Shown: positions 43,015 to 60,672 of the stretch, in pieces
How positions within the stretch are numbered: the first letter of the stretch is position 1
Layout: each line of letters starts with the position of its first letter
Assembly: GCA_016932735.1 (NCBI GenBank)
Contig: JAFGCI010000003.1
Coordinates: 1 to 64,000, forward strand
Length of the DNA: 64,000 nt
Reading direction: 5' to 3'
Source: Candidatus Aenigmatarchaeota archaeon
Lineage (GTDB): Archaea > Aenigmatarchaeota > Aenigmatarchaeia > QMZP01 > QMZT01
Position numbers and translations under genes: made by a program
Notes under the pieces: generated by a model
Seen by the model: the letters and a program-made list of their open reading frames with translations, nothing else
Databases searched by the model: none
What the model was told of the DNA's origin: nothing

Positions 43015-43258
43015 GCGGGGGTAGCCAAGTGGTCAAACACACGGCCGTTCAGCGGCCAGAAGTGGACTATAGGCGACAGAATCATCATATGGAAAGACGC
43101 ATATTTTATATGCGTCAAAAAAGATTTTGAGCTTTGAGGTGTTTAAGGCGCCGGTGATGTCGATGCTCAAGACCTGTTCACTTAGTGTGTTCGCGGGTTC
43201 GAATGCAATCGCTGAAGCGAAGCCTCTTCAGCAGGAGCCGAAGATCCCACCCCCCGCA
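43015..43258 (+). tRNA. tRNA-Leu(CAA) with three introns: D-loop (43033-43070), anticodon stem 30/31 (43080-43164), T-loop (43204-43244)
   Basis: Spliced: GCGGGGGTAGCCAAGTGG/AGGCGACAG/GCTCAAGACCTGTTCACTTAGTGTGTTCGCGGGTTCGAA/TCCCACCCCCCGCA; class II, CTCAAGA loop. Confidence 0.85.
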
Positions 43259-44524: not shown

Positions 44525-44654
44525 GTCCCTGTAGTCTAGACCGGTCAAGGATTCGAGCCTCTCGAGCTCGAGACCCGGGTTCAAACATTGGTAACCCACG
44601 CATAAAGTGTGGGAGACAGGAAACCGTCTCCAATTGAAATTCCCGGCGGGGACA
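44525..44654 (+). tRNA. tRNA-Glu(CTC) with T-loop intron (44586-44640)
   Basis: Spliced: GTCCCTGTAGTCTAGACCGGTCAAGGATTCGAGCCTCTCGAGCTCGAGACCCGGGTTCAAA/TCCCGGCGGGGACA; BHB CCGGG-TTCA-AAC-ATTGG...CCAAT-TGAA-ATT-CCCGG. Confidence 0.95.
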
Positions 44655-59487: not shown

Positions 59488-60672
59488 CTACGGCTTAATC
59501 CATTCTATCTCGTAGTATTCATATTTAGAGCCGGGAAGTACTATCTGCTTTAGAACATAGTAAGTGATTGATGTTTCCCTGTCTGTAATTGAAAGCATCA
59601 ATGACAATCCCATTTCCTTTGCCATCTTCAGAAGAGATGCAAGTTCCACTCCTCCGATATGCTCATCTTCTGAAACGACTGCAAGAAGGTATCTGGGCTT
59701 ATCTTTCGGAGTCTCGCGGACGAATATTCCGCCTTCCTTCTTCCTTCTGTAGGCGACAAAATCGACATGATAATTTATGTAATCCTTCTCGGTCATCTCA
59801 GGAATACCGAGAATGAATGTCTTCTTGACGCCGTGCGCAACACGGACGGCTCTTGACCATTCCGAAATAAGGAGCTTCTGGTCTTTGGGGAAGACATGAA
59901 GAACGTGCTTGGAGTGTATCCAGTTGTCTTCCTTGACCGGGCTTGCGCCGGGGAAATATATCCGAAAGTGCGTCCCGAACTTAAAGCCGGTCTTAACGAC
60001 ATAGGACTGAAGCCTCCAGTCCTCATAAATATCATACAGTTCTTTGGTATACTCTCTCTTCTTTATGGCGGCATTAAGGACCTTCTCGGGGGTAGTCGCT
60101 TTCTTCGTTTTGGCGTCAATGAGCTTTACCCCGAAGTGCTTTGCGACAAAGACCGTCTCAAGAAAGCTCAGTTTGGAAGTGTCTCCTCTTCCCTGCTTGT
60201 AGATTCCGTACTGACCAATCCAGAACTCCTCGAAGAACCATTTTCCGAGCTCATCACTGTCAAGGATTGAATAAAGAGAGTCAGAAAACCAATAAGCTGT
60301 CGCCTCAAGCTTTTTTGTCTGGAGCTTTTTCGAAGGATACTTCTTGAAAGTCTTCCCCTCATGCTTGCTCCTTACGTTGGTAAGGCGTCTGACGATGAGA
60401 CCGCGGTCTCTCCAGTCCCTGTAAGCATTGTATTTGGTGAAGAGCCGATCCTCCTTTTTGGAGAAATGAACCATCACATCGGTGAAGGTCAGTTCCTTAC
60501 CTTTCACATCGACTGCTTTCGCATTCTGGAACTGGATAAGATAGAGGAACTCCTCGGGCTCAAGCCATATCAAGCCCTGCTCTTCCTTTCCGAAGAAGTT
60601 CTTCCTGAGCTTGTCGAGAGTCTCTTCATCCTGAGCGTATCCGCCTTTGGTCTTGTCGAGTATTATCTGCAT
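59488..60672 (-). CDS. endA: tRNA-intron endonuclease, long (probable three-unit) form
   Basis: 394 aa; YDIYEDWRLQSYVVKTGFKFGTHFRIYFPGA...NWIHSKHVLHVFPKDQ...SRAVRVAHGVKKTFILGI with candidate catalytic Y, H, K. Confidence 0.93.
   Translation of the reverse strand: MQIILDKTKGGYAQDEETLDKLRKNFFGKEEQGLIWLEPEEFLYLIQFQNAKAVDVKGKELTFTDVMVHFSKKEDRLFTKYNAYRDWRDRGLIVRRLTNVRSKHEGKTFKKYPSKKLQTKKLEATAYWFSDSLYSILDSDELGKWFFEEFWIGQYGIYKQGRGDTSKLSFLETVFVAKHFGVKLIDAKTKKATTPEKVLNAAIKKREYTKELYDIYEDWRLQSYVVKTGFKFGTHFRIYFPGASPVKEDNWIHSKHVLHVFPKDQKLLISEWSRAVRVAHGVKKTFILGIPEMTEKDYINYHVDFVAYRRKKEGGIFVRETPKDKPRYLLAVVSEDEHIGGVELASLLKMAKEMGLSLMLSITDRETSITYYVLKQIVLPGSKYEYYEIEWIKP

Follow-up and report, generated by a model that had tools for sequence, protein, structure and literature searches.

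A three-intron tRNA-Leu(CAA) gene in an Aenigmatarchaeota genome and the guide-like layout of its middle intron

Structure of the interrupted tRNA-Leu(CAA) gene

The window analysed here, 64,000 nucleotides of DNA from Candidatus Aenigmatarchaeota archaeon (GCA_016932735.1), lies on contig C8 of a genome (G000) of 1.18 Mb that is 90.6% complete. At 43015-43258 it carries a tRNA gene in four exons separated by three introns (Table 1). In-silico splicing of this stretch yields an 84-nt class II tRNA that ARAGORN calls as tRNA-Leu(CAA), the identity given to it by the original prediction. The unspliced gene is missed by both ARAGORN and Rfam; standard tools call only two tRNA-Val in the window, and relaxing the Rfam threshold to E 10 brought up no relevant family at the locus.

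Table 1. Features of the tRNA-Leu(CAA) locus and the splicing endonuclease gene, in window coordinates
Feature	Position	Strand	Basis
Exon 1: acceptor 5' strand, D-stem 5' strand, D-loop up to position 21	43015..43036	+	
Intron 1, position 21/22, 34 nt	43037..43070	+	H, bulges, h and relatives
Exon 2: AGGCGACAG, positions 22-30	43071..43079	+	
Intron 2, position 30/31, 85 nt	43080..43164	+	H, bulges, h and relatives
Antisense guide TTTTGAGCT in intron 2	43125..43133	+	Complementary to positions 30-38 of own tRNA
Box D-like TTGA	43134..43137	+	CTGA in most relatives
Short stem between the boxes, GGTG 43138-43141 / CGCC 43149-43152	43138..43152	+	Sequence
Box C-like GTGATG	43154..43159	+	Sequence and relatives
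Exon 3: anticodon CAA (34-36), variable arm, T-stem, T-loop up to position 59	43165..43203	+	
Intron 3, position 59/60, 41 nt	43204..43244	+	H, bulges and relatives
Exon 4: position 60, T-stem and acceptor 3' strands, discriminator A73	43245..43258	+	
EndA, epsilon-type splicing endonuclease, 394 aa, catalytic Y239, H253, K284	59488..60672	-	ARMAN-2 match

Each of the three introns has a central helix of 4 bp and bulges that follow the NN^N rule. In intron 1, helix H is formed by GGTC (43031-43034) and GACT (43065-43068), flanked by bulges AA^A and AT^A and followed by an inner helix h of CAC (43038-43040) and GTG (43062-43064). Intron 2 has H formed by CGAC (43074-43077) and GTCG (43159-43162), bulges AG^A and AT^G, and an h of 6 bp, while intron 3 has H formed by TTCG (43198-43201) and CGAA (43239-43242) with bulges AA^T and GA^T. 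The outer exon helix h' of introns 1 and 2 is just 1-3 bp long, and these two introns are therefore of the relaxed (hBH) form. Random placement in the window would give equal H and h scores with probabilities of 1.3e-3, 3e-5 and 3e-3 for introns 1, 2 and 3, which come on top of the tRNA match itself.

The three-intron organization had been proposed from the sequence before this analysis, and it holds with one boundary corrected. The middle and T-loop introns stand exactly where they had been placed, with relatives agreeing on both junctions. The D-loop intron had been set at 43033-43070 (38 nt) with a weak BHB of 3 bp; this put its 5' end 4 nt too early, and the corrected intron has the 4-bp H and the additional h described above. 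The earlier boundary is rejected because it would remove TCAA from the D-loop and because relatives contradict it; removal of the corrected intron leaves a standard Leu D-loop, AAGTGGTCAAAGGC. The spliced tRNA has the predicted acceptor GCGGGGG/CCCCCGC, along with the predicted anticodon stem and loop. The C-A mismatch noticed in the T-stem is also present and corresponds to C50-A64 (window 43193-43249), with all other stems intact. Relatives do not share it and have T-stems CAGGG/CCCTG or GTGGG/CCCAC; in the window gene it may be a tolerated mismatch, a site of editing or a fault of the assembly. A shift of the T-loop splice site was considered as a way to mend it, but the permitted slide yields an identical product.

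Comparison with relatives fixes the junctions. A search of eight more genomes from the family supplied Leu(CAA) genes, whose introns were then parsed. The gene of G007 has the 30/31 intron alone, without introns 1 and 3, and that of G005 has introns at 30/31 and 59/60 without intron 1; in both, an uninterrupted D-arm reads through exactly at the corrected intron 1 junction. G006 is uninterrupted at 30/31 and 59/60; its introns are one in the V-arm and one in the D-loop that differs from intron 1. For every intron there is a relative that reads through at the predicted junction, and each junction of the window gene is thereby fixed independently. G003, from the same genus, shares the three positions, where its dissimilar introns measure 20, 62 and 32 nt. 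The H of intron 1 there reads GGTC/GACC against GGTC/GACT in the window, a compensatory change from G-U to G-C. Introns occupy 30/31, 37/38 and 59/60 in G008, and G001 has four, at 21/22, 30/31, the V-arm and 59/60. V-arm introns were placed by exon anchoring, and adjacent 30/31 and 37/38 introns in four genes (L161-L163, L168) were separated by eye. Relatives retain the gene with 1-4 introns each, and its orthologs extend across families.

The gene appears to be the genome's only one for this tRNA. A search of the 90.6%-complete assembly with the mature sequence found no second intact tRNA-Leu(CAA) at full strength, the only full-strength matches being the gene's own exons; the locus is thus not a decaying duplicate of an intact copy in the assembly, the outcome that the original prediction had named as contrary to its reading. 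The genome makes use of UUG, which accounts for 34 of 515 sampled Leu codons. Read from its sequence, the three-intron gene structure is near certain, and its introns alone would make it a further case of the known multi-intron tRNAs.

A guide-like layout within intron 2

The original prediction passed over what looks like a likely box C/D guide for the tRNA's own wobble base, located in the middle intron. The antisense stretch forms 9 pairs with the tRNA from which it is cut, G-U allowed, and is directly followed by a box D-like motif, a short stem and a box C-like motif. The base facing C34 is G43129, at a distance of 5 nt upstream from box D. The N+5 rule, by which the nucleotide paired at this distance from box D is the one modified, is established for box C/D RNAs; taken with the placement of G43129, it predicts 2'-O-methylation of wobble C34.

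The layout recurs in 30/31 introns of relatives as an antisense of the anticodon loop, 0-3 bases, CTGA or a variant of it, a short stem or loop, and RTGATG or TGAAG beside the H strand. The equivalent inter-box stem is GGC-GAAA-GCC in G003 and GGC-AA-GCC in G005. In the window, the box C-like motif lacks the final A of the consensus RUGAUGA. Its bases partly coincide with the 3' strand of BHB helix h, and its last G is also where the H strand GTCG starts. Two motifs (C/D and C'/D') are usual in characterized archaeal guides, and a C'/D' pair was not seen in the intron sequence, which contains a single box pair. With one C/D-type motif visible, intron 2 is described here as working like a box C/D guide and not as a complete member of the class.

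Among distinct Leu(CAA) 30/31 introns of the order, both boxes and 8 or more pairs at N+5 to C34 occur together in 8 of 10, where dinucleotide shuffles predict 0.009. An enlarged set of 18 anticodon-arm introns was assembled from the Leu(CAA) 30/31 introns, Leu(CAA) 37/38 introns of another family, and Leu(UAA) introns. At least 7 pairs at N+5 were found in 15 of these 18, where shuffles expect 0.06, and in none of them at registers N+2, 3, 4, 6, 7 or 8. D-loop and T-loop introns gave no instance of the N+5 layout (0/10). Furthermore, the guide covaries with the anticodon that it faces: CAA genes have TTGAG and UAA genes TTAAG, within a guide that reads CTTGAG- in Leu(CAA) and CTTAAGT in Leu(UAA), although the UAA half of this covariation is slightly weakened because CTTAAG is palindromic.

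The 18 introns share ancestry and are not independent trials, and the motif had been noticed before testing. For both reasons the cleanest check of the guide is a scan of 156 genomes of the phylum with a pattern made of guide, CTGA and downstream exon, from which box C was excluded. Matches occurred in 13 of the 156 genomes and in none with a reversed-pattern control. Eight matches lie outside the order that prompted the idea; all eight are in tRNA-Leu(CAA) and all have ATGATG. Because this strand is also one side of BHB helix h in several species, some of the conservation of box C may serve splicing. A match to the guide pattern in G002 (contig C69) was counted as chance, as it sits in an unrelated protein-coding-like region. 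The guide match is lost in G011 and G015, and G006 is without a 30/31 intron; a search of G006 with the strict pattern found no free-standing guide, and loosening the pattern would not be decisive. On this sequence evidence, a guide function of intron 2 is well supported.

Processing machinery and competing readings

Several of the proteins that such a precursor would call for are encoded in the same genome. The endonuclease named in the original prediction is real and of the epsilon2 type, matching the ARMAN-2 epsilon2 EndA (PDB 4fz2, 9w2k) over its full length (E 5.7e-106). The catalytic residues of the ARMAN-2 enzyme, Y236, H251 and K282 (PMC12397907), align with those listed in Table 1, leaving the triad intact. 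The ARMAN-2 enzyme cuts both BHB and BHL substrates (PMC12397907). Identity of the window enzyme is 85% with the EndA of one Micrarchaeota-labelled assembly and 49-68% with those of many Aenigmatarchaeota-labelled assemblies, which places the host among the DPANN archaea (Micrarchaeota/Aenigmatarchaeota type). RtcB is encoded on contig C9, and fibrillarin and Nop5 are both encoded in the genome. Since EndA and RtcB are encoded, a known route exists by which the tRNA-Leu(CAA) precursor can be processed, and we infer that it is.

These observations present a model in which the locus is very probably a working, single-copy tRNA-Leu(CAA) gene with three BHB introns excised by EndA, the middle of which would also guide methylation of C34. 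The epsilon2 EndA would cut out the introns at 21/22, 30/31 and 59/60, and RtcB, as gene content suggests, would presumably ligate the exons. The antisense of intron 2 would pair with the anticodon loop of its own tRNA, in cis or in trans, and a predicted RNP would form in which the intron directs fibrillarin and Nop5 to methylate the 2'-OH of wobble C34.

Intron-anticodon pairing is common in many pre-tRNAs, and the main competing reading is that all three are plain BHB introns, the antisense of intron 2 just folding onto the anticodon loop in the precursor. The BHB motifs do explain splicing fully, a hairpin TTGAGC...GCTCAA is possible, and the box C strand overlaps helix h. Plain introns leave unexplained a TGA-type box that 15 of 18 introns place at N+5 and none at another offset, the stem and UGA box downstream, and the identical layout in Leu(UAA) introns at a different position. 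Known Pyrococcus guides, moreover, aim at exactly these two wobble positions (PMC7994747), and plain introns without an added role are judged unlikely. The intron might alternatively be removed and guide modification of another RNA, the match to its host being incidental. Action in trans is possible and is favored by in vitro data for the Haloferax tRNA-Trp intron (PMC2584109), but the guide sequence changes together with the host anticodon from Leu(CAA) to Leu(UAA) genes, making another target extremely improbable. Decay is no more credible: a pseudogene whose insertions are debris would account for the C50-A64 mismatch and for the failure of standard tRNA finders, yet the remaining stems are intact, the splice motifs are maintained with a compensatory change relative to G003, and UUG codons are used. 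The pseudogene reading was rejected on the grounds that this is the sole tRNA-Leu(CAA) copy in the assembly and that orthologs across families retain it.

The guide model can be extended beyond the window gene, to a reading that we hold tentatively and at slightly less than even chances. The anticodon-arm introns of Leu(CAA) and Leu(UAA) in this phylum would be minimal, single-motif self-guides for the wobble base. Because helix h and box C use one strand, the splicing and methylation folds of such a self-guide would exclude each other in time. The introns of a sister Leu gene would, in the same extension, choose between two anticodon exons.

Relation to known systems and other interrupted tRNA genes

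To our knowledge, only tRNA-Trp introns are known as guides for their own tRNA. In many archaea these introns guide formation of Cm34 and Um39 (PMC2584109). A comparison of the tRNA-Trp intron (sR50 type) with intron 2 reveals a common arrangement, as both place a guide in the intron of its own target and aim it at C34 (PMC2584109; PMC7994747). They differ in that the host here is tRNA-Leu(CAA), and in relatives also Leu(UAA), in that the window intron lies at 30/31 and not 37/38, and in that one guide and one box C/D motif are visible. The Pyrococcus C/D box sRNAs for position 34 of tRNA-Leu(CAA) and tRNA-Leu(UAA) share the target nucleotides and the N+5 logic (PMC7994747). The Pyrococcus guide for tRNA-Leu(CAA) is a free-standing sRNA, only the Trp one being described as an intron, whereas the guide described here lies inside its target gene. 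C34 of P. furiosus tRNA-Leu(CAA) is a predicted C/D target that was undetected in the set analysed (PMC7668247). A search of largely open-access literature found no description of a tRNA-Leu intron guide. A self-guiding tRNA-Leu intron would make the tRNA-Trp case a recurrent strategy instead of an oddity and would offer a ground for intron retention. Three introns in one tRNA are a puzzle in a small genome, and here one of them would have a concrete job in guiding wobble methylation of its own tRNA.

As a multi-intron gene, the locus resembles those of Thermoproteales (Pyrobaculum, Thermofilum) and ARMAN-1/2, which likewise carry multiple BHB introns, some at canonical and others at non-canonical sites, and have an EndA of broad specificity (PMC4033280; PMC8450103; PMC3218864). 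The window gene belongs to another lineage, is paired with an epsilon2 EndA and has different introns. The published maximum is three introns per archaeal tRNA gene (PMC4033280; PMC8450103). The window gene is at this maximum, and two other genes, Leu(CAA) of G001 and Leu(UAA) of the window's own genome, parse with four. A lineage above the published limit would be a good setting in which to study intron gain beside an epsilon2 endonuclease.

Several other tRNA genes of the genome are interrupted. The tRNA-Leu(UAA) gene on the minus strand of contig C3 (G000:C3:89421-89607 plus flanks; L156, L157) has its four introns in the D-loop, at 37/38, in the V-arm and in the T-loop. In this gene, and likewise in Leu(CAA) of G001, every junction has NN^N bulges and forms three or more of the four H pairs. 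The 37/38 intron of this Leu(UAA) has the same guide layout, aimed at U34. Within the window, a tRNA-Glu(CUC) gene at 44525-44654 (+) has a 55-nt T-loop intron at 59/60, with H TTCA/TGAA, bulges AA^C and AT^T, and an h of 5 bp.

A further tRNA-Leu gene, at G000:C7:89484-89748 (L133), contains tandem alternative anticodon exons, GTTTAGG (UAG) and GTTCAGG (CAG), each of which is bounded by separate BHB splice sites; these pair with partners common to both exons through 3-4 of 4 H pairs. Genes with two anticodon exons also occur in G002 (L037), G021 (L130) and G028 (L121), and a search of G000 for stand-alone Leu(CAG) and Leu(UAG) genes found none. From its sequence, this type of gene looks like a case of mutually exclusive exons that would give two isoacceptors by alternative cis-splicing. 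Finally, a tRNA-Leu with anticodon AAG, an A at position 34 being unusual for archaea, begins at G000:C1:74333 (L154), where it has D-loop and T-loop introns, and is also present in related genomes (L131, L137, L034). Only about ten tRNAs in the whole of G000 score well with a general tRNA model, so most of its tRNA genes are probably interrupted.
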